From a virus, in the IMG/VR virus record IMGVR_UViG_3300037606_000285, positions 1 to 20,583 of that record: a DNA stretch of 20,583 nucleotides; one strand, written 5' to 3'. The notes below the pieces were generated by a model. The model had not been told where the DNA came from. It was given only the letters and a program-made list of their open reading frames with translations, and searched no databases. This document shows, one piece after another, positions 6,913 through 20,540 of this stretch. The stretch's first letter is position 1. Every line of letters begins with the position of its first letter. The position numbers were made by a program, and so were the translations under genes.

Positions 6913-8448
6913 TCACGGCCTTTGCCACACCCATCTTTTCTTGCCGCAATCGAAGATCCGCCGCGCACCCATGAGGTAGGTCATCTCCCCCTCAGTTCGC
7001 TTGTCTGTGGCGGGGTCGAACCGCTCTAGGCTCCCATGGTCTTTTAGCCGGGTCGGCAAGACTCGCCGCTGGTAGTGGGGTTTCGGGCGTAGCCCGAGCT
7101 TGGGGCTCCAGACCTGATAGTCAGCAACAACGTCGGCTTCCTTCTCGAAGCCCAGCTGGGCGTACATGCCCCCGCCAAACAGCCTGTTGTCCGAGAACGA
7201 CTTGACCTCGCTTGGGTCATGCTCCTTCACGAACGCTTTGAACAACCGGCTGGCCGCCCCTGCCACTGCAAGGCGTGTTGCGCACCGGCTCAAGGTCCAT
7301 TGGCGCACCTTTGCCCCCGCACCCCGGTCGTTGTTCCCGAAGGAGAACCTCATGCAGGCGACGAGCTTGCCCTTGTGATACAGGCCATAGTGGTCCCCGT
7401 AACCCCCGCCGCCTTGCGGGTGGAATTTCTCATAGAACTCCCGGGACTCCTGCACTGTAGGTTTGCGTAGCTCGCACTTGCGGGCCATTAGCTTGCCCCG
7501 GGTCTTCCCAACGGCGTTGCGCAGCATCCGCTTGATCGTGGCCGTCCGTTCTGCCCACTCTGTCTCGTAGAGCGTGATGAGGCGGATGCCCTTGGCCTCG
7601 CACAAACGGTGCTTCTCGGCATGGCGCAGCTTGTTCTTGCGCTCGTCGTCCTTGTCGCCGTGGCTGTGCCAGTACATCCCGCAGAACTCGACCGCGAGGC
7701 TATGCTCAGGCAGGTAGATGTCCAGCTCCTTGGGCCCGATCAGCGTGCGGTCGCGGCGGACAACTGTTGTGAACTGGGAAAGGTAGGCCGCCACAGCATC
7801 TTCTGGGGCTGATTTCTGCCCGCAACTAGGGCACCCCTGCCCTGCTAGGTGGTGGTACACGGCCTGCTCGAAAGCCCCGTGTTTGCCGCACAGGATAGTC
7901 ACCTTGTTGCGCCCGGTGGTGTACCCATGCTGGGAGTAATCATACAGGTCCCCGTGAACCTCTCGGGCCCGCTCTGGGAATAGGGCCTGAAACTTTTTCT
8001 TCTTGGTGGCCGCTGCGTTTCTGTGGGACTGGGGGGTCGGCCCCTTCCTGCGGTCCCCGCATGCACGGCACCCTTGCTTGCCATGCACCAGCTTAAGGGG
8101 TCGCACTTCGAAGTCCCCATGCTCTGGGCAGGTGACCACGACTTTCTCCACCATGGTGAGGTAACGCGTTTTTGAGTAGTCATATTTTCCCGGATGAACC
8201 AATTCCGCCCGCCTAAGAAACTCTTCTGGGTCCATCCGCACTGTTAAAGTTCGCTGGGCGGCCCCGCAGGAAGGGCACCCCGCGCCATCTTTGCGAAACT
8301 GTGCTGAGTATTGTTGGAACGTTCCGTGTGTAGGGCACACAATACCTGTCATAGGCACCAACGCGCCTTTATAGGTGGCGTTGCTAAAATCGTACCTCTC
8401 CAGTATTTGCGGGGGGAACAGGGCAAGTGTTTGCTCAAGGGTTTTCAT
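6913..8448 (-). CDS. Probable Vsr-like homing endonuclease with zinc modules
   Basis: This 511-residue protein begins MKTLEQTLALFPPQ. Three zinc modules come first, each pairing CPxHG or CxKHG with CPSC or CxAC: C38/H41/C58/C61, C107/H110/C127/C130 and C187/H190/C206/C209. These resemble the repeats known as DUF723. A nuclease domain follows at about residues 213-310, with ELDIYLP (E241, D243), AVEFCGMYWHSH (E254, H261) and LYETEW (E295, E297). This fits the Vsr-like EDxHD family of phage homing endonucleases. The C-terminal 200 residues are the usual associated domain (FHPQGGGGYGDHYGLYHKGK, FSDNRLFGGG). It would cut DNA at a target in related phages so the gene is copied in. It has its own promoter and terminator and interrupts the structural operon after the capsid gene. 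Confidence 0.85.
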   Translation of the reverse strand: MKTLEQTLALFPPQILERYDFSNATYKGALVPMTGIVCPTHGTFQQYSAQFRKDGAGCPSCGAAQRTLTVRMDPEEFLRRAELVHPGKYDYSKTRYLTMVEKVVVTCPEHGDFEVRPLKLVHGKQGCRACGDRRKGPTPQSHRNAAATKKKKFQALFPERAREVHGDLYDYSQHGYTTGRNKVTILCGKHGAFEQAVYHHLAGQGCPSCGQKSAPEDAVAAYLSQFTTVVRRDRTLIGPKELDIYLPEHSLAVEFCGMYWHSHGDKDDERKNKLRHAEKHRLCEAKGIRLITLYETEWAERTATIKRMLRNAVGKTRGKLMARKCELRKPTVQESREFYEKFHPQGGGGYGDHYGLYHKGKLVACMRFSFGNNDRGAGAKVRQWTLSRCATRLAVAGAASRLFKAFVKEHDPSEVKSFSDNRLFGGGMYAQLGFEKEADVVADYQVWSPKLGLRPKPHYQRRVLPTRLKDHGSLERFDPATDKRTEGEMTYLMGARRIFDCGKKRWVWQRP

Positions 8449-8455
8449 AGGCCGG

Positions 8456-8490
8456 GTTACCTCTTATAGCGGGTGTTCCCTCTTATAGCG
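8456..8490. repeat. Tandem 16-bp repeat in endonuclease leader
   Basis: Two copies of GTTxCCTCTTATAGCG (plus strand) lie at 8456-8471 and 8475-8490, a 19-base period. The upstream copy supplies the -10 box of the endonuclease promoter; the downstream copy lies between the predicted transcription start and the ATG. It may be a protein-binding site or the result of slippage. Confidence 0.75.
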
Positions 8491-8511
8491 TTAGTTACTA
8501 CTTGCAGTCAA
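8482..8511 (-). promoter_or_regulatory. Sigma70-type promoter for endonuclease gene
   Basis: On the minus strand TTGACT (8506-8511) is followed after 18 bases by TATAAG (8482-8487). It lies between the capsid terminator and the endonuclease ATG at 8448, which gives a leader of about 27 bases. Confidence 0.65.
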
Positions 8512-8512
8512 C

Positions 8513-8542
8513 ACAAAAGAAAAGGCCCGCCGAAGCGGGCCT
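8513..8542 (-). terminator. Rho-independent terminator after major capsid gene
   Basis: On the minus strand AGGCCCGC / GCGGGCCT form a perfect eight-base stem around TTCG, followed by TTTTCTTTT. It lies about 29 bases past the capsid stop and would end the head transcript. Confidence 0.88.
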
Positions 8543-8557
8543 CCTGTAGTCTAAGTG

Positions 8558-8575
8558 CTTGATATTGCTATCAAG
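8558..8575 (-). other. Perfect hairpin spanning the capsid stop codon
   Basis: CTTGATA and TATCAAG form a seven-base stem around a four-base loop, and the stop codon (8571-8573) is inside it. It has no T-tract, so it is not itself a terminator. It could protect the mRNA 3' end together with the following terminator. Confidence 0.55.
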
Positions 8576-9476
8576 CTCCTGCGGAGCCGTAGATGCCCAA
8601 GGGATCGCTCACCCCGAAGCTGTAACGTTCTCTGCTTTTGTAACGCACGTTTCCTGAGTCGAAATCGCCGTCCATCGCAGTGGTCATCGCCGCCCGAACA
8701 AAGTGCTTCATCCCGTTGGGCACATCAGTGGTCAAGAACCATGCATCTGCGTCAGTCAGATAATGGTTGACACGGTAGCCTTCAGGGATCGAGCCGTTCG
8801 TCTTCAGCGCGTTCAGATCGTTATCGGCGGTGCCAACACGCAAATCGGTCTGCAGCAGACGAGTTGCAACGAACATGAGGCCCGGCGGGATAATCAGCTT
8901 GCGTGGCATCGCAGCGATCAGCAGGCCACGCTCATCCACGTACCCCGCAATGTCGATCACAGCTTGCTCAAGAGCCGTCTCGTTCAAGTCAACAGCAACA
9001 GAAGGCCGGTTGCCATTAACCACGCCCGACACAGTCGGGTGAGCCGCCGAGAACAAGGTAACCCCATCGCCCGAATTGAACGAGGTGAAGCCCGTATTCA
9101 GCAGCGACGCCGCCTTGACCTGCTTGGTATACGCCATGGCACGAGCGAGCGCCTTGGTGTACCGGCTGGACAAGGAGTCATACAGGTTGTCTTCCATCGC
9201 TTCTTCAGTGATGGCGAAACCCATAGCCACGGTCTCATGGACGTAACGTGCGGTGTAGGACTCTTGCGCGTTATCGTAGGACAGTGCGCCCCCCTCGGTC
9301 TTGATGGGAGCAGCGCCGAAGCCCGACAGCTTCAGTTCTTCTTCAAACGACCGCTCGGATGTCTCGGTCTCATAGATCTCCGAATGCTCGTCCTCGTACT
9401 TCTTGTACTCCAGACCAAACAGAGCGTTCAATCCGGGAAGAAGCTCTTTGAGGGCCTGTGCGCGCGAAATTGCCAT
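8571..9476 (-). CDS. Major capsid protein, HK97-type fold
   Basis: This 301-residue protein begins MAISRAQALKELLPGLNALF. The following acidic stretch EYKKYEDEHSEIYETETSER and the SDPLGIYGSAGA C-terminus are typical of the head-protein family with the HK97 fold. The mid-region KLIIPPGLMFVATRLLQTDL and the loop TADNDLNALKT fit the peripheral domain. Support also comes from position: it follows terminase, portal and scaffold, a strong AAGGAGGG ribosome site precedes it, and a strong terminator follows it. It forms the icosahedral shell. No protease gene is seen nearby, and the scaffold is separate, so the shell is probably not matured by an adjacent protease. Confidence in the role is high and in sub-family moderate. 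Confidence 0.88.
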   Translation of the reverse strand: MAISRAQALKELLPGLNALFGLEYKKYEDEHSEIYETETSERSFEEELKLSGFGAAPIKTEGGALSYDNAQESYTARYVHETVAMGFAITEEAMEDNLYDSLSSRYTKALARAMAYTKQVKAASLLNTGFTSFNSGDGVTLFSAAHPTVSGVVNGNRPSVAVDLNETALEQAVIDIAGYVDERGLLIAAMPRKLIIPPGLMFVATRLLQTDLRVGTADNDLNALKTNGSIPEGYRVNHYLTDADAWFLTTDVPNGMKHFVRAAMTTAMDGDFDSGNVRYKSRERYSFGVSDPLGIYGSAGA

Positions 9477-9489
9477 GGTTTAGCCCTCC

Positions 9490-10110
9490 TTAAAGGCCAA
9501 CAGCATTGGTCATGCTGTGGTAGCCGAGGTTGAACTTGACCAGAACATCTGGAAAAGCGTCGGTCAGCGGGGATACCGCGGACACAATTCGGAACGCCGC
9601 GGTCGTGGTGACCGTGGTGGATTCCAGCGCCGAGGTGGACACGCCCGTCACCACATTGCCAGTCGAAGTGGACTGGGCCGCAGCGAAGAAGGTGTTGGCC
9701 CCGATGTCCGACTGATCGGCAACGCCGTCCAGCTGAACTTGGAACAGGACATTCGGATCATCGACGACAAGCGCCTTGATCGTAGTGCCCGCAGGTGCAG
9801 CATAACCCGACGGGTATGACTGCGAGAAGATCAGCTGCCCTTGTGCATTGATAAACTCGCAACCCATGAAGACGCCCAGCGAACCTGTGAGGGTCCCGCC
9901 GGTCGGCAACGCGTTGGTGGTGGCGTTGGCGCCAGTTGCGGTAGACAAAGCGAGGAAGCCGTCCGCGCCAATGTGCACGACTTGCCCTACATACAGGTTC
10001 GTCGCTTCACCAGCGGGGTCGATCAGGTACTGGGACATAGCCCCAGCATAAGCCATGCCATCAGCGCGTTTTACGGGCTTCAGGCCATAGGGAGAGGCAG
10101 TAAGTGCCAT
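9490..10110 (-). CDS. Candidate capsid decoration protein
   Basis: This 206-residue protein starts MALTASPYGLKPVKRADGMA, has YLIDPAGEATNLYVGQVVHI next, and is then rich in Thr, Ala, Gly and Val. The start xASPYGxxPVxxxDG is a landmark I recall from proteins encoded just ahead of the major capsid gene in many tailed phages, often called head decoration or coat proteins. The middle segment KALVVDDPNVLFQVQLDGV also fits that family. The ATG has a GGAGG ribosome site, and the gene stops 13 bases before the capsid start. It probably binds the outer shell and stabilises it, though it could be a minor capsid part. Confidence 0.72.
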   Translation of the reverse strand: MALTASPYGLKPVKRADGMAYAGAMSQYLIDPAGEATNLYVGQVVHIGADGFLALSTATGANATTNALPTGGTLTGSLGVFMGCEFINAQGQLIFSQSYPSGYAAPAGTTIKALVVDDPNVLFQVQLDGVADQSDIGANTFFAAAQSTSTGNVVTGVSTSALESTTVTTTAAFRIVSAVSPLTDAFPDVLVKFNLGYHSMTNAVGL

Positions 10111-10145
10111 TTCTCATCCTCCAGAATCGTGTCGAGGAGGCAAGG

Positions 10146-10592
10146 TTAGCCCTTGCCAAACGAAGTGCGGGACGAACGCTCCGGCGTGAGCACGGGCATC
10201 CGTGAGTCGGACTCCTTCATGTAGTTCCGGTCAACGGCATCCATCTGGGCTTGCGCCTGCTGGGCCTGACCGACAACACGTCGGGCCGCCTGTTTGTCGG
10301 GGATGCTGCAGAGCAACAGGCCACCAACCTCAATGTTGTCCGGGAACCGAGAGTCCACGTCAGACATGATCTTCAGCTCGAGGTACTCAGCAGCTTTGAC
10401 AGGGACGTAGCCTTCACGAAAACGACGCGAGACGTTCGCCATATCAGCGTTACCGAGGGACGAGGTGCGAACCCAACGATAATGGAGACCATCACGTGGT
10501 TCGGGGGTGGGGAGCATAGACTGGCGTTTCCACGGTGTGTCGTGGGCTTCGGCCTCACGAGTCTCAGACTCTCTGGGGGTACGATCAGCCAT
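10146..10592 (-). CDS. Conserved phage head-cluster protein
   Basis: This 148-residue protein starts MADRTPRESETREAEAHDTP and includes DGLHYRWVRTSSLGNADMAN and VSRRFREGYVPVKAAEYLEL. The sequence IMSDVDSRFPDNIEVGGLLL and the ending MKESDSRMPVLTPERSS are landmarks I recall from proteins encoded between scaffold and capsid genes in environmental phages. Its role in the head is not established. It overlaps the scaffold gene by eight bases and has an AAGGAGA ribosome site inside that gene. The conserved position suggests involvement in head assembly. Confidence 0.72.
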   Translation of the reverse strand: MADRTPRESETREAEAHDTPWKRQSMLPTPEPRDGLHYRWVRTSSLGNADMANVSRRFREGYVPVKAAEYLELKIMSDVDSRFPDNIEVGGLLLCSIPDKQAARRVVGQAQQAQAQMDAVDRNYMKESDSRMPVLTPERSSRTSFGKG

Positions 10593-11487
10593 TCTTCATC
10601 TCCTTGATAATCTGCGCCGCGTACTGTTCTACCGTCAACCCGAGCTTCTTGGCGAGAGAAACCTGCGTCGCTGTCAACGTAACCTTGCGGGGTGTTGCCG
10701 CGGTACTTCTACCGCCGGGGGCCACCACGGAGCCCGGTTGCTTCCGGGGTGTTGACTCCCCACTGGTCGCAAACTTGTCTGGAAACCGCTGTCTCATAGC
10801 GGTGTCTATCTCAGTATAGTACGCTTCACTGTCTGGCGCAACACCTTCGCGCACTGCACGCTCGTGGATGCCGAACGCAAGAGCCGTCATCTCCGCGTCC
10901 TTGCCAAACCAATCGTTTGTCGTGGCCCAAGATTCTGCACGGGGCGACGGCTTTGGCACTGACGGACGCTGCGGGGCGGGAGCCGGGGTGGCTGCCTGCT
11001 GTGGCTGAGGTGGCCGGTACGACGCGAGCCGTCCTTCTTCGCCCTTGATGTCAGCGAGCTCGGCACTTGCCGACACGAACGCATCAGAGTCCCCAGCCTC
11101 ATAGGCGGCTTTCATCTTGGCCTTCACCTGCTCCAGTTGGGACTTTACCCGGCCCTGAGCCTGCGAAACGAAGGCCGCGTCGCCATCAGATAGGCGCTTG
11201 CGATACCCAGTGATTTCTTCTTGCTGGCGCTGGGCGTAGGAAACAGCCTCATCCCGCAGCCGGGTGGACTCGTCCGCGCGGCGGCGCTCCTCATGGAACT
11301 CGTACTTGAGCTTGCTGATGCGCTTCTTCACGCCATCAGAATACTGCTCCAGATCATCATCTTCCGGGATTTCTGGTGCGGCGCCTTCCGGGCGGCGTGG
11401 CCGGCCCTTGTCATCAGCGGGCGTATCATCGACAATTTCGATCTCGAAGTCGTCGTCTTCAGCGGGCTTTTTGGCTTTCTCGTTCAT
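10585..11487 (-). CDS. Head scaffolding protein
   Basis: This 300-residue protein has the classical scaffold layout. An acidic N-terminus (EDDDFEIEIVDD, DDDLEQYSDG, to about residue 52) leads into a long coiled coil rich in Arg, Glu, Gln and Lys to about residue 155. A Pro/Ala/Gln-rich linker (YRPPQPQQAATPAPAPQRPS) and a C-terminal helical basic tail (LTATQVSLAKKLGLTVEQYA) follow. Such proteins assemble the procapsid shell and then leave. Its ATG overlaps the preceding GroES-like gene by four bases (ATGA), and its own end overlaps the next gene by eight. Position just upstream of capsid genes and downstream of the portal supports this assignment. The likely alternative is another coiled-coil internal head protein. 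Confidence 0.82.
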   Translation of the reverse strand: MNEKAKKPAEDDDFEIEIVDDTPADDKGRPRRPEGAAPEIPEDDDLEQYSDGVKKRISKLKYEFHEERRRADESTRLRDEAVSYAQRQQEEITGYRKRLSDGDAAFVSQAQGRVKSQLEQVKAKMKAAYEAGDSDAFVSASAELADIKGEEGRLASYRPPQPQQAATPAPAPQRPSVPKPSPRAESWATTNDWFGKDAEMTALAFGIHERAVREGVAPDSEAYYTEIDTAMRQRFPDKFATSGESTPRKQPGSVVAPGGRSTAATPRKVTLTATQVSLAKKLGLTVEQYAAQIIKEMKNG

Positions 11488-11855
11488 GCGCGGCTGTACC
11501 CCCGTGGGTCTTCGACAACTGCTTCCACAGTGTCATCATTGATGATTCGGAACTCGTCCCCGTGCACTCTGAAGCGCGTGCCAGAATACGAACGGAAGAT
11601 GATGAAGTCGCCTTCCTTGCACCATGGGCCGCCGGGGAATTTGGCCGTGTCTCCGTAGGCATCGGAGCCTATCCTGAGAACGTAGCCGATGATGGAGGCA
11701 GTTTCTTCTGCGTCCCGACGCTCATCGGGCAGGTGTACCCCGCCCTCGGTCGTCTTGTTCAGCTTGGGAACCGCAATCAAGAGCTTGTAGCCCTTGGGTT
11801 CCGGGAGTTTGGCGCGCAACTCCTCGTCAATTTTGACGCCGGTTGGTGTAAACAT
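11484..11855 (-). CDS. GroES-like co-chaperonin encoded by the phage
   Basis: This 123-residue protein contains a recognisable Cpn10 domain. PKGYKLLIAVPKLNKTTEGG (about residues 20-39) leads to the mobile loop and GGVHLPDE, then IIGYVLRIGSDA, and the C-terminal strand set CKEGDFIIFRSYSGTRFRVH plus GDEFRIINDDTVEAVVED. Cellular GroES has about 95-100 residues with GD..LF..Y.G.....G.E..I....I.AV.. in the same order; this protein carries about 20 extra N-terminal residues. It would partner the host GroEL to help fold the capsid protein, as gp31 of phage T4 does. Its location directly before scaffold and capsid genes supports that. A likely promoter precedes it, and GGAGAG is the ribosome site. 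Confidence 0.85.
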   Translation of the reverse strand: MFTPTGVKIDEELRAKLPEPKGYKLLIAVPKLNKTTEGGVHLPDERRDAEETASIIGYVLRIGSDAYGDTAKFPGGPWCKEGDFIIFRSYSGTRFRVHGDEFRIINDDTVEAVVEDPRGYSRA

Positions 11856-11921
11856 GGTCTCTCCGCAGCGTTTAAGGTACGCCGTTACCTAGCGCGGGCT
11901 GGTCCCACGGTATGGGGTCAT

Positions 11922-11950
11922 ATGATAGCGAGGAGCAGTTTATTCTTCAA
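11922..11950 (-). promoter_or_regulatory. Likely promoter for co-chaperonin and head genes
   Basis: On the minus strand TTGAAG (11945-11950) is followed after 17 bases by TATCAT (11922-11927). The -35 box overlaps the end of the gene at 11940-12122. The resulting transcript would begin about 60 bases before the GroES-like gene, allowing extra expression of co-chaperonin, scaffold and capsid. Confidence 0.5.
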
Positions 11951-12122
11951 GCTGCTTCTTTTCGATGTCGGCAATCTCCCCCAACACCATATCTAGGGTC
12001 TGGATAGCCCCTACTGCTTTGGAATAGGCGTTGAAGTCTGCTGCGCCACCCAGCGCCAGATGGTCCGCGAGGTCTTGGCGCTGGGTGGCAAGTGTCCGCC
12101 GGAGGCGTTCCAGATGTTCCAT
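11940..12122 (-). CDS. 60-residue coiled-coil protein
   Basis: This protein reads MEHLERLRRTLATQRQDLAD and ends with MVLGEIADIEKKQLEE. It is helical throughout, apart from a short turn (GGAADFNAYSK), with regular Leu spacing, so a coiled coil is likely. Its ATG shares one base with the portal stop codon (TGATG). Small helical proteins of this type often follow portal genes in environmental phages; no function is known to me. A role as a portal or scaffold partner is possible by position only. Confidence 0.68.
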   Translation of the reverse strand: MEHLERLRRTLATQRQDLADHLALGGAADFNAYSKAVGAIQTLDMVLGEIADIEKKQLEE

Positions 12123-14569
12123 CAGGTTTTCCCTCTATTACCTGCGAGCTGCTTGGCGATGTCGATCCCCATAGCGAGCCCCTTGGCTTTGTCTTCCCGC
12201 GTCGCGTTGGTGGCATCCTCTGCAACACGCACTCCGAGCCGGGCGCCTTCCCGCTTGTCCTCGGCCGCGATACGCTCGCGCTGGATAGCAGAGGCGTCCA
12301 CCGCCTTCATCGCGTCGAGCTCGAGTCGCTTGGTCTTGAGCTCCGCGTCAAGCCTGATGTCCATCTCCTCGAGCTCCAACTCCTTCAGCTGGATCTGGGT
12401 GAGCGGGTCCTTGGCCTGCTGCTCGGCCTGCTGCTGTGCAGCCTCGGCCTGATTCTTCTGCAACAGTTTACCCGCCGCCGCAGCCACGAGCCTTGACAGC
12501 TCCAGCTCGACATCCTCGGGCATGGGCTCGTCCTCTGCGGGCAGCGGCACGCCAAGCTGCGCTTCCAGCGACTTGCGATACGCCAGAGCCACGTGCTCCG
12601 TGATGTGAGCCGCCATGGCGTTCTGGATCGCTGACGCGAACGGAGACTGACCCACGATCTGCAAGAGCTTGGGGTCCTGCGCCGCGGCCATGTGGACCGC
12701 GATGTGTGCCTCGTGGTCCTGATACAGGAACGCCTTCACAGGCTCTTGCTTCAGGATGGCCATGTTCTCGGCCACCGGGTCCTTGGGCTTCAGCTCGCTT
12801 GGCAGCTTGATGATCTCCGCCGCGTCTTGGATGCCCAGCACCTCAAGCATCTGCCGGTGGAGCTTGCCCATATCGTACAGCTGCGGAGCCTGTGTAGAGA
12901 GCTGCAGTGCAGCCTGATACTGCATGATGCGCTGCGCTGTGGTGGCCGCGTTGGGGTCCGATACCGGGATAATGTCTACCCCCGTCCCAAAGTCTTCCGC
13001 CCGGTCAAAATCATCATCTTCAAAGTAATCATATTTGCTGGACATGAAGTCCCGAATGACCCGAGCGAGCAAGCGGAGCTCCTGCTTCATCGCGGCATGC
13101 AGCCTGTGCTGGATGCCCGACATCACCTTCATGTTGCGCTCGAGGAGGGCCAGCGTGGTCCCCACCGGTGCCTGTGCGCTCATATCGCTGACCTGCAGGT
13201 CTGCCATGGAGCTGATCCGTCGGCCTTCCTGCACTACGTTCCCGAGCAGTTGGTACAAGACAGCGCTGGGCTCCTTGTAGGGCATGGGGAACAGCGAGTC
13301 GCGGAGCGATCCGCCCACGATGTCCACGTCCCGCCATTCGCCCGGCTTCAGGGGGCTATTGTCCCCCTTGATGCGCAACGATCTTGACTTCAAACCCGCA
13401 GGCAGGTTGGACAGAGTGCCAGCGTCGATCAGCTGACGAAGGATTGAGGTGGCGGACTTCGTGAGGCCGCCCACCAGATGCGTGAGACCCGTGCCATAAA
13501 ACCCCATACCCGGCAGGTACGGGTAGTGGGCGAAGTGCTGCCGCTTGGTCAGCGTCTCGTCGTCCTCGTACCAGTTGCGGTAGATGGCCAGAATTTTAAG
13601 CGAGGTGAGGTCGATGGTAACAACGTAAGGGCGGTCGATCGCTTCGGGGTCGTCAAACGGCTCTGGGAGGGAGATGTCCACATGCATCTCGAGCAGGGTG
13701 TGCCGCTCCTCCTGCTCCGTTGGGACATCAACGCCCGTGATCTTGGCGTATGCCTCCTCGATGTCGGTGGTCTCCCGCGTGGGCTCCGCGAGCTCCTCGT
13801 CAATATAGAGCCCCGCCACCTGCAGCTTGCGCACTTCGTTGGGGGTCCGCTTCATCACATGGGTATAGCGAGGGCAATCCTCCAGCCCAGACGCGCCGTA
13901 GGACACAACGAAGTCCTCGGCCTGCACGAACACGGCCCGCGCCCGCTTGGTGGTGGGGTCGAAGTAGATTTTCTTGAACGCAGAGCCCGCCAGCGGGAGC
14001 TTGAACAACATCTGCTCAGTCTCTTCCCGATACCCGGGCATGCGCTCGGTGATCTGGTAGTTAAGCTCCTGCTCAACGCGCTGGGCCCGCTCGACCTTCT
14101 CCCGGGTGGACTTGCCCATGATCTTGGTCTTTGCTGGGCCGCCAGAGGGCATCATCTCGCCCATAGCCTGCGCTTGGAACCGCACCACAGCCTCGGCCAG
14201 CATGGGGTGGAACACGCCTGACGCGCCGTCCCACGGCTCCATGCGGTCCTCGATCCGCATCCCAAGCAGCTCAAGGCCCTTGATGTAAGACTCAGCCCAG
14301 TCCTTGCGGCTGCGGCGGTCCATCTCAAAGCCCTCAACCAGATCAGTGGCGAGCGCCGTCAGCTCGCCCTCTTCGATGAACTCCGCAAGGTTGGCGTCGT
14401 GCTCCATGGCGGCGGGGTCAGCCTCAACCTCGTCACCAAACTCTACTGTGACGCTACCATCTTCGCCCTCGGTTGTGACCGACAGGGGGTCAAGCACCTC
14501 GACCTCTATCTCAGGAAGGTCGCCTTGCGCCAGAAAGTCTGACGGCTGCATCGGCTTCTCAATCGCCAT
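12122..14569 (-). CDS. Portal protein (P22/SU10-type)
   Basis: This 815-residue protein is the largest in the window. After an acidic leader it has DRRSRKDWAESYIKGLELLG (about residues 84-103), MEPWDGASGVFHPMLAEAVV (about 111-130) and AQAMGEMMPSGGPAKTKIMG; I recall these as landmarks of the large portal family of P22- and SU10-like phages. The crown and stem region carries FGTGVDIIPVSDPNAATTAQ, and the C-terminal 120 residues form an Ala/Gln/Glu/Lys-rich coiled coil (NQAEAAQQQAEQQAKDPLTQ). The portal forms the twelve-subunit ring through which DNA is packaged and ejected. An AGAGGT ribosome site precedes the ATG. Its C-terminal coil probably points into the head, as the barrel of P22 does; that part is inference. 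Confidence 0.88.
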   Translation of the reverse strand: MAIEKPMQPSDFLAQGDLPEIEVEVLDPLSVTTEGEDGSVTVEFGDEVEADPAAMEHDANLAEFIEEGELTALATDLVEGFEMDRRSRKDWAESYIKGLELLGMRIEDRMEPWDGASGVFHPMLAEAVVRFQAQAMGEMMPSGGPAKTKIMGKSTREKVERAQRVEQELNYQITERMPGYREETEQMLFKLPLAGSAFKKIYFDPTTKRARAVFVQAEDFVVSYGASGLEDCPRYTHVMKRTPNEVRKLQVAGLYIDEELAEPTRETTDIEEAYAKITGVDVPTEQEERHTLLEMHVDISLPEPFDDPEAIDRPYVVTIDLTSLKILAIYRNWYEDDETLTKRQHFAHYPYLPGMGFYGTGLTHLVGGLTKSATSILRQLIDAGTLSNLPAGLKSRSLRIKGDNSPLKPGEWRDVDIVGGSLRDSLFPMPYKEPSAVLYQLLGNVVQEGRRISSMADLQVSDMSAQAPVGTTLALLERNMKVMSGIQHRLHAAMKQELRLLARVIRDFMSSKYDYFEDDDFDRAEDFGTGVDIIPVSDPNAATTAQRIMQYQAALQLSTQAPQLYDMGKLHRQMLEVLGIQDAAEIIKLPSELKPKDPVAENMAILKQEPVKAFLYQDHEAHIAVHMAAAQDPKLLQIVGQSPFASAIQNAMAAHITEHVALAYRKSLEAQLGVPLPAEDEPMPEDVELELSRLVAAAAGKLLQKNQAEAAQQQAEQQAKDPLTQIQLKELELEEMDIRLDAELKTKRLELDAMKAVDASAIQRERIAAEDKREGARLGVRVAEDATNATREDKAKGLAMGIDIAKQLAGNRGKT

Positions 14570-14587
14570 ATTTCTTACCTCTGGTGC

Positions 14588-15049
14588 TCAATAAATGCCG
14601 TTGAAGCGATTGTCAGACCCCTCGCGGTAGCCTCCTGACCGGCCCCCGGGCTCCCGGTAATCGCTGTTGTCACTGGCCCGTGACTGGTTGTCCATCACCT
14701 GCTGCTGAGTAAGCCCTGATATGCCAGACCCTTTTCCCGCCAAGCCGCCGCCTTTGCCCTGCCCCTGCCCCGCCAGCGCGAGTGCCGCCCGGTCCCGTGT
14801 GGCAGCCTGTGCCGCGGCCAAGGCGTCAAAGTTCGGAGTGTTGATGTTGATCTGCATGCCGGGCGGGGCCGCCGGCGGGGCCGCCATCAGCTCTGGAGAT
14901 GGCTGCACTCTGTTCAGGAGCTGTGCCCCGAACATCTGCTGCGCGCCGGGGAGCAACTGCGGGAGACCCATGCCTTGTGGTATGCCTTGCGGTGCCGCCT
15001 GTGGCATGCCTTGTGGGGGTGGCATCCCCCCGCCTGTTGAAAACTCCAT
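14588..15049 (-). CDS. Pro/Gly/Gln-rich hypothetical protein
   Basis: This 153-residue protein starts MEFSTGGGMPPPQGMPQAAP. The first 45 residues are nearly all Pro, Gly, Gln, Met and Leu and are likely disordered. A more ordered middle follows (QININTPNFDALAAAQAATR) and then Gly/Ser/Arg-rich low-complexity sequence to the end. The ATG is preceded by GGAGAGGTAAG. It lies between two packaging genes, 18 bases ahead of the portal. I do not recognise it. Its composition would suit a flexible linker or internal head protein, but no function can be assigned. Confidence 0.65.
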   Translation of the reverse strand: MEFSTGGGMPPPQGMPQAAPQGIPQGMGLPQLLPGAQQMFGAQLLNRVQPSPELMAAPPAAPPGMQININTPNFDALAAAQAATRDRAALALAGQGQGKGGGLAGKGSGISGLTQQQVMDNQSRASDNSDYREPGGRSGGYREGSDNRFNGIY

Positions 15050-18209: not shown

Positions 18210-18980
18210 ATGACAAATGAATCAAACACACCCCGCCCTAATCTGGACCTGATCCTGTCCACTATTCCGTTGGCAATCCGCGCCATGAACAAGGAAGCAA
18301 CTGCCAGTGTAATGGCCACAACCGCAGCGATGGCCGTGTATGACGCGGCTGTGGCCACGTTTGGTTCGGCGCGTTGCCTTACCGCCACGTCACAGAATAA
18401 GGAGGCAAGCGTAGAAGAAAAGAACGCCTATATCATCTTGAAAGAGGCGGCTGTTGTCGAAGTATGGGGAAAGGCATTTGCCAGCAAGGTGGACAATGGC
18501 AAAGGCGCAAAAGATATGATTGGCGCGCCCAAGAAAGGGATGGCAAGCAATACCCGGTTTTACTGGCAGCAACAAAAGGGAAAGGTATTTGGCCGTATCA
18601 CGGACCGGATTGCTAGGGCGATCGCCCAAGCCAAAGCGGACAATGCGGCGCCGAATAGCCTGCGTGCTATTGATGCAATGTGTGCCCCAAACCGCAAAGC
18701 GCCAATTGATAAGCGCGCTATTGATGCAATGGGTGCGCCAATGAAGGCAATGGCAACTGCGCTGGCCGCCACCAATGGCAAGGGGGAACAAATCCCCCCG
18801 CACGTTGACGCGCCTGCTTACTTGCGCCTTTGCGAGCTTGCCTTGCTTGCCTTGTCGCCCGTTAAGGAAAAGCAAAACTTGGCGCGCCTGTGCCTTGCCG
18901 CCTATGACGCGGCTTTGGCGATTGATATCAAGGCGGCCAAGCCCAAGCGGGTTCAACGTCCGCTTGTATCTGCTAAGTAA
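18210..18980 (+). CDS. Ala/Lys-rich protein of unknown function, only plus-strand gene
   Basis: This 256-residue protein reads MTNESNTPRPNLDLILSTIP and is strongly Ala- and Lys-rich with mostly helical sequence (TASVMATTAAMAVYDAAVAT; NKEASVEEKNAYIILKEAAV). A central part has RFYWQQQKGKVFGRITDRIA. A duplicated motif RAIDAMxAP occurs at about residues 151-159 and 172-180. It carries few Cys and no visible enzyme motif. Upstream are two promoter candidates and a weak ribosome site; downstream are two strong terminators in the same direction. These signals support a real gene over the overlapping minus-strand frame. Because it diverges from the late operon it may be an early gene. I do not recognise it. 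Confidence 0.72.
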   Translation: MTNESNTPRPNLDLILSTIPLAIRAMNKEATASVMATTAAMAVYDAAVATFGSARCLTATSQNKEASVEEKNAYIILKEAAVVEVWGKAFASKVDNGKGAKDMIGAPKKGMASNTRFYWQQQKGKVFGRITDRIARAIAQAKADNAAPNSLRAIDAMCAPNRKAPIDKRAIDAMGAPMKAMATALAATNGKGEQIPPHVDAPAYLRLCELALLALSPVKEKQNLARLCLAAYDAALAIDIKAAKPKRVQRPLVSAK

Positions 18981-18988
18981 ACTATATC

Positions 18989-19019
18989 GCCCCCGCGCCG
19001 CAAGGTTCGGGGGCTTTTT
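18989..19019 (+). terminator. Rho-independent terminator 1 (tandem pair)
   Basis: GCCCCCG (18989-18995) pairs with CGGGGGC (19008-19014), followed by TTTTT. It sits nine bases after the plus-strand gene's stop codon. Confidence 0.88.
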
Positions 19020-19033
19020 CATGTCCGCCGTCC

Positions 19034-19065
19034 GCCCCCGCGCCGCAAGGTTCGGGGGCTTTTTT
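19034..19065 (+). terminator. Rho-independent terminator 2, copy of terminator 1
   Basis: The same hairpin, including the loop CGCCGCAAGGTT, recurs 45 bases downstream with TTTTTT after it. The copies match over 32 bases, so this is a recent tandem duplication. Two terminators in a row insulate the rightward gene from the convergent array beyond. Confidence 0.88.
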
Positions 19066-19079
19066 GTGCTTTCCTTTCG

Positions 19080-19109
19080 GAAACCAGTTCTCCAGCAGCG
19101 ACGGGACTT
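19080..19109. repeat. 30-bp direct repeat, copy 1
   Basis: Begins GAAACCAGTTCTCCAGCAGC and runs into the palindrome at 19106-19126. It is identical over 30 bases to copy 2 (19133-19162). On the minus strand it is followed by AAAGGA, the ribosome site seen ahead of the paralog gene, but no gene remains there. Confidence 0.9.
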
Positions 19110-19126
19110 AGTCGGGGGGACTAAGT
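19106..19126. repeat. CTTAGTC palindrome 1 (loop GGGGG)
   Basis: ACTTAGTC and GACTAAGT form a perfect eight-base inverted repeat around five G. Same stem as at 19182, 19558 and 20522; only the loop changes. Confidence 0.92.
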
Positions 19127-19132
19127 GGGCCA

Positions 19133-19162
19133 GAAACCAGTTCTCCAGCAGCGACGGGACTT
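19133..19162. repeat. 30-bp direct repeat, copy 2
   Basis: Exact copy of 19080-19109. It is not joined to a palindrome on its right; 19 bases separate it from the one at 19182. Confidence 0.9.
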
Positions 19163-19181
19163 GCCCACCAGTCCAGCCCGG

Positions 19182-19202
19182 ACTTAGTCCCCCCGACTAA
19201 GT
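19182..19202. repeat. CTTAGTC palindrome 2 (loop CCCCC), at gene end
   Basis: ACTTAGTC-CCCCC-GACTAAGT. The TAG stop codon of the gene at 19197 lies in the right arm. The loop is the complement of palindrome 1. Confidence 0.92.
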
Positions 19203-19511
19203 CTCACTGACGTAAGCCATCTTCAGACCGTACTCGTTGGACCAGCGCCGCGTAGTCGCCAGAGTCTTGCGCAGGTCCTTACGCAGGTTCTCGATGTGGC
19301 AGATAGGCGACACGGTCTTGAGCGCCGTGCGGCATGTGGCGCACACAGGAGCAAGTGGGGCAAGTGGGCGAGCGGGGTCTACCACCGCCTTGTAGCCAAT
19401 AGGCTCGAGGAACAGTGCGCGCCCTGACAGTGGGCCTTTCCCACAGCAGTAGCAGCTTTTGCCGTACCTGCGCTGCGCAAGCCCGCGTTCGATGTCTCTT
19501 TTGTTAGCCAT
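19197..19511 (-). CDS. Cys4 zinc-binding protein, paralog B
   Basis: This 104-residue protein begins MANKRDIERGLAQRRYGKSC. Cys20-x2-Cys23 (SCYCCGKGP) and Cys57-x2-Cys60 (VCATC) form a likely zinc site, with GPLSGRALFLEPIGY between. It is a clear paralog of the protein at 19559-19873: both have RDxxRxxA, a Gly-x-x-Cys-x2-Cys, GPLxxRxLFxxPxGY and a second CxxC. Paralog B has nine extra residues between the pairs. The layout recalls the first half of HNH nucleases, but no HNH His/Asn core is visible. The ATG at 19509-19511 has AAAGGA seven bases upstream. Its stop codon lies inside the palindrome. Function unknown; a DNA-binding or regulatory role is a guess. Confidence 0.75.
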   Translation of the reverse strand: MANKRDIERGLAQRRYGKSCYCCGKGPLSGRALFLEPIGYKAVVDPARPLAPLAPVCATCRTALKTVSPICHIENLRKDLRKTLATTRRWSNEYGLKMAYVSET

Positions 19512-19530
19512 GATGTGTCCTTTCAAGACG

Positions 19531-19560
19531 GAAGCCAGTTCTCCAACAGCGACGGGACTT
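19531..19560. repeat. 30-bp direct repeat, copy 3 (variant)
   Basis: Differs from copies 1 and 2 at two bases (GAAGCCAG... and ...CCAACAGC). It lies between the two paralog genes, in the leader of the downstream one, and runs into the palindrome at 19558. Confidence 0.88.
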
Positions 19561-19576
19561 AGTCCTCGTGACTAAG
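19558..19576. repeat. CTTAGTC palindrome 3 (loop CTCGT), at gene end
   Basis: CTTAGTC-CTCGT-GACTAAG. It contains the TAA stop of the gene at 19559. On the minus strand the palindrome is read as Leu-Ser-x-x-Asp-stop. Confidence 0.9.
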
Positions 19577-19873
19577 GTGGAGCGGGACTTCGGATACGGC
19601 CTCTATGCGGTAGCCTCCAGCGGTGGCGTGCTCACGGGTTGCTTTGATTACGGCGTTGGCGTGCTTGCGGAGCTGCTTTACGAGGGCCACCTCCGATCCG
19701 CCACCTTCAAAGTGATCGCGGCAGCTTTTGCACAATGGCACGTCCATGCCACGATACCCGAGGGGCATGATGAACAAACCGCGCCGTTGCAGCGGCCCTG
19801 TCGTGCAAAAGAAGCAATTCCGACCAAAATTGCTGACCGCCTGCGCTCGGTCTAGGTCACGGTCTGTAGCCAT
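19559..19873 (-). CDS. Cys4 zinc-binding protein, paralog A
   Basis: This protein also has 104 residues: MATDRDLDRAQAVSNFGRNC, then FFCTTGPLQRRGLFIMPLGY, then a second pair in PLCKSC. Cys20/Cys23 and Cys48/Cys51 form the likely zinc site. A basic helical region follows (LVKQLRKHANAVIKATREHA), which could bind nucleic acid. A strong AAAGGAGG ribosome site precedes the ATG, and a TTGACA box lies about 75 bases upstream. It is the first gene left of the repeat-rich region at 19874-20583 and the paralog of the next gene. I know no named family for the pair. A half-HNH, a transcription regulator or an anti-host protein are all possible. Confidence 0.75.
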   Translation of the reverse strand: MATDRDLDRAQAVSNFGRNCFFCTTGPLQRRGLFIMPLGYRGMDVPLCKSCRDHFEGGGSEVALVKQLRKHANAVIKATREHATAGGYRIEAVSEVPLHLSHED

Positions 19874-20521: not shown

Positions 20522-20540
20522 CTTAGTCCCGACGACTAAG
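20522..20540. repeat. CTTAGTC palindrome 4 (loop CCGAC)
   Basis: CTTAGTC-CCGAC-GACTAAG, about 950 bases from palindrome 3 yet with the same stem and loop length. The 30-bp repeat is absent here. Confidence 0.9.

Follow-up and report, generated by a model that had tools for sequence, protein, structure and literature searches.

Repeated hairpins at early-gene borders in a group of related phages, and a duplicated Cys4 gene beside them

The 20,583-nucleotide stretch of viral DNA analyzed here (IMG/VR record IMGVR_UViG_3300037606_000285; hereafter the window) carries a palindrome, CTTAGTC-N5-GACTAAG, of a kind that recurs at the borders of early genes, with arms that are constant within one phage and that change from phage to phage at orthologous junctions. 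In our judgment the chances are about even that this palindrome is a phage-specific repeated hairpin element that marks early-gene borders and is read by a sequence-specific factor encoded by the phage. Two genes for small proteins with paired CxxC motifs (Cys4 proteins) end within copies of it; this local arrangement is an ordinary tandem duplication next to a phage-wide element, and the wider hairpin pattern, rather than the local duplication, is the interesting part.

Hairpin families in the window and its relatives

The window contains four exact copies of the palindrome; allowing up to three mismatches gives five matches versus 0.38 expected, and at least five were reached in 0 of 100 shuffles. 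The 64.3-kb contig G001, whose terminase is identical to that of the window (100% at the amino acid level) and whose DNA is 97-98% identical on either side of the Cys4 locus, holds 16 exact copies, all within 47.0-60.1 kb, most of them lying after the stop codon of one gene and before the start of the following one. The typical layout in G001 is a stop codon, CTTAGTC-N5-GACTAAG, about 23 nt that include a Shine-Dalgarno (SD) sequence, and ATG. Among the exact copies the arms are invariant and the five-base center is variable; additional copies in G001 and G003 are altered, some of them symmetrically (e.g., CTTAGGC/GCCTAAG). The palindrome of the window is also that of G002 (14.7 kb), G003 (62 kb), and G004 (5.4 kb).

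The comparison was extended to G006 (52.5 kb; terminase 76%), to further, more distant contigs (terminase 65-68%), and to Planktothrix phage Pag-Yong1, the cultured relative whose capsid is most similar (capsid 75%, terminase 40%). Scanning for any 7-bp perfect hairpin that recurs in one genome identified GCTAGGA-N4 (eight copies, G006), GATAAGT-N4 (five, G007), GTTAGTG-N3/4 (ten, G009), TTTAGGG-N4 (five, G011), AGTATGG-N4 (three, G010), and CGGTTCA-N3 (seven exact copies, Pag-Yong1); shuffled sequences gave at most one copy. Under relaxed matching, Pag-Yong1 has 37 hairpin sites versus 0.15 expected. Of the 36 terminase-relative loci that are 9 kb or longer, 20 have a hairpin family with three or more copies, compared with 0 of 165 shuffles; in the loci lacking a family, the early ATPase/VWA genes are missing from the fetched stretch. 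Each of the 22 related sequences that contain these early genes has a hairpin family of its own, in most cases with arms of entirely different sequence; because some of the 22 overlap, they represent fewer independent phages. The stretches compared from the more distant HTVC023P, HTVC027P, DSL-LC04, and CRP-902 contained neither a hairpin family nor the early ATPase/VWA genes. Among 19 loci taken as unrelated controls, a family turned up only in L051, which in fact belongs to the related phages (terminase 66%); another control locus, L058, derives from a near-copy of G003.

The position of the hairpins is conserved along with their presence. The phage's own hairpin lies upstream of the orthologous start in 14 of 17 cases for the ATPase gene, 10 of 17 for VWA, and 15 of 20 for DUF3150 (Pfam names), mostly at a distance of 12-30 nt, and the arms at these orthologs are completely different among many phages. 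It is thus the position that is conserved, with the sequence turning over in concert. Among 137 hairpins from 23 sources, 80 are followed by an SD and a start codon within 50 nt, and the upstream stop codon falls mostly between -9 and +6 nt relative to the first base of the hairpin. By inspection, one arm contains a stop codon in 13 of the 15 arm families, so genes that end inside the palindrome are to be expected. Some copies cluster in divergent regions with no gene start just downstream.

The palindrome is not an intrinsic terminator, because no T run follows it: on the coding strand the bases 3' of it are of the tccaaccaa/tcccgtcgc type. Palindromes were likewise absent from the terminator-like sites found in a terminator scan. 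The two inverted repeats at 18988-19066 do have T runs; from their sequence we read them as intrinsic terminators of the facing gene at 18210-18980, and they illustrate the form that terminators take here. The RNA folds of the leaders in the window were unremarkable (z-scores of -0.4 to -1.2), and the best Rfam match, to a microRNA model (E 0.023), was far below the gathering score and was discarded.

Several other elements were seen in the same regions. A palindrome lies inside a VWA-like coding sequence in G001 (49882-49900), in G003 (26088-26106; locus L052), and in L051, and the G003 copy (CTTGGTC/GACCAAG) is kept via synonymous, mutually compensating changes. Phages with other arms have no palindrome there, so the copy inside the gene may be a coincidence. 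Short open reading frames (ORFs) of about 30-81 aa that begin MIW[TGAS]FLRPLVWSKSRYG and continue in Gly-Asp/Tyr/Asn repeats number nine in G001, seven in G003, and six in G004 (L143 about 7000-15000, corresponding to G001 47-55 kb; L052; L056); many end directly at a palindrome, and scanning viral contigs at the DNA level turned them up in these close relatives only. The window segment 20035-20270, which is AT-rich, 97% conserved, and separates divergent gene blocks, has recurring motifs (AATGTTCC/GGAACATT) along with a perfect inverted repeat of 17 bp, ATATCAATGACTTAGCA; its sequence is iteron-like and possibly a replication origin. Repeats resembling AATGTTCC are also present in G010, and repeats of the TCATACC type in G006. 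The DNA polymerase region of G001 (39344-42177, minus strand; L143, L146) appears split, with an extra ORF between the parts, possibly by an intron or intein insertion. Pag-Yong1, MinM2, and Pra-JY27 (OL906435, OQ594354, PP438419) are all 65,014 bp long and name three different cyanobacterial hosts; given the 69% G+C of Pag-Yong1, a heterotroph living in the cultures may be the actual host.

The duplicated Cys4 gene and its leader

The features of the locus are listed in Table 1. The two proteins are 30% identical (50% positives; BLASTP E 1e-18), and the CxxC pairs are invariant in an alignment of the Cys4 homologs. These homologs are under purifying selection (dN/dS of 0.13-0.45), and the ORFs are therefore real genes. 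Along the coding (minus) strand, the first gene is followed by a palindrome, a 30-mer, and an SD sequence; then come the second gene with its palindrome, a short insert, and a 30-mer; and last a palindrome, a 30-mer, and an SD-like AAAGGA with no gene behind it.

Table 1 Positions of the Cys4 genes, palindromes, 30-mers, and neighboring repeats in the window.
Feature	Position	Strand	Basis or context
Cys4 gene A	19559-19873	(-)	104 aa; C20-x2-C23, C48-x2-C51; ORF list, homologs
Gene A SD AAAGGAGG	19880-19887		
Gene A stop TAA	19559-19561		Within palindrome 19558-19576
Palindrome CTTAGTC-CTCGT-GACTAAG	19558-19576		Gene A end
30-mer copy 1	19531-19560	(-)	Leader between palindrome and gene B SD; alignment
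Gene B SD AAAGGA	19518-19523		
Gene B start ATG	19509-19511		
Cys4 gene B	19197-19511	(-)	104 aa; paralog of gene A
Gene B stop TAG	19197-19199		Within palindrome 19183-19201
Palindrome CTTAGTC-CCCCC-GACTAAG	19183-19201		Gene B end; RNA fold
30-mer copy 2	19133-19162	(-)	After gene B palindrome, separated by short insert
Palindrome CTTAGTC-GGGGG-GACTAAG	19107-19125		Start of orphan unit; RNA fold
30-mer copy 3 (orphan)	19080-19109	(-)	Then SD-like AAAGGA 19072-19077, no gene
Two GC-rich inverted repeats with T runs (32-bp direct repeat)	18988-19066	(+)	By inspection
Fourth palindrome	20522-20540		No 30-mer; conserved divergent intergenic region; identical in G001

The original prediction had described head-to-tail paralogs, each with its stop codon inside the palindrome, and a 30-bp repeat after or near the palindromes, the whole forming a repeated unit. 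The ORFs, BLASTP, and the palindrome positions bear out the gene pair; the 30-bp repeat is present in three copies of 93-100% identity, with none expected by chance; and duplication of the unit is supported. The description was thus correct as far as it went, having omitted the palindrome at 20522, the gene-less last 30-mer, and the terminators. The 30-mer is the leader, that is, the 5' untranslated region, of a Cys4 gene, and is situated between the palindrome and the SD sequence. The orphan copy at 19080 is likely a relic of a third unit and, having no gene, marks the tandem duplication. We read the duplication of gene, leader, and palindrome as older than the split of the G003 and G001 lineages. 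In G001 and G002 (L143/L145, L008) a 33-bp GC-rich, hairpin-like insert, CGGGACTTCGGAACCCCGCGGCTTTGGCCGGGG, separates the 30-mer from the palindrome; G002 has a related insert in tandem, the window has none, and a repeated CGGGACTT lies on the flanks.

Cys4 homologs occur as two genes each in G001 and G003, as one complete gene and one cut by the contig end in G002, and as a single gene in G006 and L051. A profile search found none in G007, G009, G010, G011, or Pag-Yong1, and a scan of genome contigs for further relatives found none. Apparent matches in L005 and L006 were chance tblastn hits inside an unrelated 732-aa ORF, and those in Erwinia phages, within a 2.8-kb coding sequence named terminase in one record, were also judged to be chance. 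In all five sources the homologs adjoin their own genome's palindrome, together with a leader having a (GA)GAACTGG core. In G006 the stop of the gene falls within the palindrome peculiar to that phage (GC-TAG-GA), and GAGAACTGGTCTC leaders lie both before and after it. In L051 the locus is syntenic, with early genes on one side and terminase genes on the other, and a palindrome and a GAGAACTGGCCTC motif come after the gene. Between the window and G001, identity is 98% and 97% on the flanks and 74-84% across about 17.96-19.89 kb; hypervariability of the Cys4 genes was considered and dropped, since G001 and G002 are about 90% identical throughout and mosaic block replacement accounts for the divergence.

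The L051 gene encodes an intact 100-aa protein with a clear HNH domain (PF01844, E 7.8e-14); the protein shares 45% identity with the G001 homolog over 42 aa. PF01844 was matched by L051 only: the window proteins gave no HNH match at E up to 1, and the homologs gave none at E up to 10, and no other Pfam family matched the Cys4 proteins. The residues invariant among the homologs (numbered in A2: M1, R9, G17, C20, C23, G26, P27, L28, L33, C48, and C51) include no His, Asp, or Asn of an HNH catalytic motif. An AlphaFold (AF2) model built from eight sequences (pLDDT 78.5) gave mostly HNH and endonuclease VII proteins as its top Foldseek matches in the BFVD viral library, with a modest best E of 4.1e-3, and equally modest structure matches (VIA; Z 5-6, below 6) to DotN, Cap5, Cas9-HNH, ZRANB3, and T4 endonuclease VII. 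A PDB sequence search with A2 returned noise only, and an hhalign comparison of the Cys4 profile with an HNH set was left out as circular, since the set contained Cys4 sequences.

The Cys4 proteins resemble the HNH/T4 endonuclease VII fold (PF01844, PF02945) in the placement of the CxxC pairs, which is that of the L051 HNH domain, in the order helix, β-hairpin, helix, and in the structural matches just given; they differ from it in lacking conserved catalytic His/Asp/Asn residues and a Pfam match. They look like a degenerate HNH/endonuclease VII zinc fold without conserved catalytic residues. They are probably a zinc-stabilized, catalytically dead HNH derivative, the HNH link being weak, and a nucleic-acid-binding accessory role would fit. 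The earlier remark that no named family was known for the proteins is refined accordingly. We found no evidence for the suggestion that they form a small defence or counter-defence pair. Elsewhere in the window, a 511-aa HNH/homing-type endonuclease gene (6913-8448, minus strand; phrog_559, E 1.7e-93) adjoins the capsid gene.

What may act on the hairpins

The identity of the arms within one phage points to sequence recognition, and their full replacement between phages points to a phage-encoded partner. We infer that the arms are the recognition sequence of such a factor and that element and factor change together. Most likely the hairpin would lie just upstream of the ribosome-binding site and act on the polycistronic early transcript, with the factor controlling processing or translation gene by gene. 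A broader proposal, which we hold tentatively and consider less likely than not, is a clade-wide private punctuation in which the hairpins are rewritten in concert, positions are kept, and a co-evolving phage-encoded reader lets each phage tell its own early genes or transcripts from those of relatives and host. Homogeneous arms could instead result from recent copying or gene conversion.

An RNA hairpin is placed slightly ahead of a DNA dyad, and operator-like action on DNA is almost as likely. Spacing to the start codons, freely varying loops in many families, and the coexistence of N3 and N4 loops on the same arms in G009 and L073 favor RNA; the variation of the spacer by 3-4 nt on the same arms in G009 and L073, and the preferred spacing to start codons and stops within operons, count against sites for a putative phage-specific dimeric regulator of early operon transcription, of the operator or stoperator type. 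Such sites are a real but lesser possibility, with arms that are uniform in any one phage but exchanged from one phage to another, as expected for a co-evolving protein, clusters of copies in divergent regions, and a most frequent loop that is self-complementary (AATT or CGCG) in five of the 11 N4 families. Pag-Yong1 also speaks for DNA: several of its 37 sites lie inside coding sequences, and the better-conserved arm (24 right, 8 left) follows genome polarity rather than the direction of the gene. Wobble pairs in imperfect copies favored neither RNA nor DNA. Hairpin promoters of the N4 type were set aside when no polymerase core was seen among the subset of proteins scanned; the largest G001 protein matches only positions 300-630 of the 3406 of the vRNAP profile (E 1.7e-5).

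Two further explanations are improbable to different degrees. A palindrome of the REPIN/MITE type, mobile or selfish and spreading by self-copying into the gaps between genes, would bring along the stop codons found in most arm families, which genes then use, and loops are indeed partly homogenized within a genome and additional short inserts occur in intergenic regions. Against this, which we regard as improbable, orthologous junctions retain a hairpin despite complete change of the arms and would need in-place replacement, no transposase was seen, and spacing to starts is non-random. Very improbable is the proposal of the original prediction that the Cys4 proteins themselves bind the palindrome, as autoregulators of a unit expanding as a module. 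The association of homologs with their own palindrome and leader and a plausible nucleic-acid-binding fold in the model speak for it; most palindrome copies serve other genes, 13 of 16 in G001 lying elsewhere, and hairpin families exist in relatives with no profile-detectable Cys4 homolog, so a dedicated binder is not supported. Neither the palindrome nor the 30-mer is specific to the two Cys4 genes: a genome-wide search showed that the palindrome does recur across the phage, mostly beside unrelated early genes.

For the preferred reading, a hairpin read by a phage-encoded factor, the rewriting between phages at orthologous genes brings a search for the co-evolving reader within reach, and Pag-Yong1, being in culture, could permit experiments. 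If a reader exists, the system would amount to a code by which phage transcripts or DNA are recognized as self.

Comparison with known systems

In phage T7, RNase III hairpins lie between the stop of one early gene and the start of the next. The present hairpins share this placement and differ in that those of T7 are longer and are not identical copies; for canonical RNase III, a stem of 7-10 bp is short. Stoperators of cluster A mycobacteriophages are comparable as numerous sites spread across a phage genome; they are described as asymmetric sites to which an immunity repressor binds as a monomer (PMC9283540), unlike the perfect dyad here.

Our literature search on repeated phage hairpins found only one paper, on the SAS/ESAS elements of cluster K mycobacteriophages (Pope et al. 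2011, PMC3203893), which occur in many copies in the non-structural half of the genome just upstream of start codons. The ESAS are inverted repeats with a variable spacer whose consensus differs between subclusters, that are kept by orthologous genes, and whose function was unknown to their describers in 2011 (PMC3203893). The present hairpins are likewise repeated inverted repeats before the starts of non-structural genes with a consensus that varies by subgroup. They differ in having perfect arms of 7-10 bp and spacers of 3-5 nt (ESAS have 17-bp imperfect repeats and mostly 4-13 bp spacers), in arms that differ far more between relatives, and in overlapping the upstream stop codon; the 13-bp GGGATAGGAGCCC at the start belongs to cluster K, and no such 13-mer was seen in the leaders read here. 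The ESAS of cluster K are thus the closest known system, and the present element, similar in most traits, is not a member because arm length and the 13-mer differ: it is an ESAS-like phenomenon with short, exact arms that are completely rewritten in each phage at orthologous genes.
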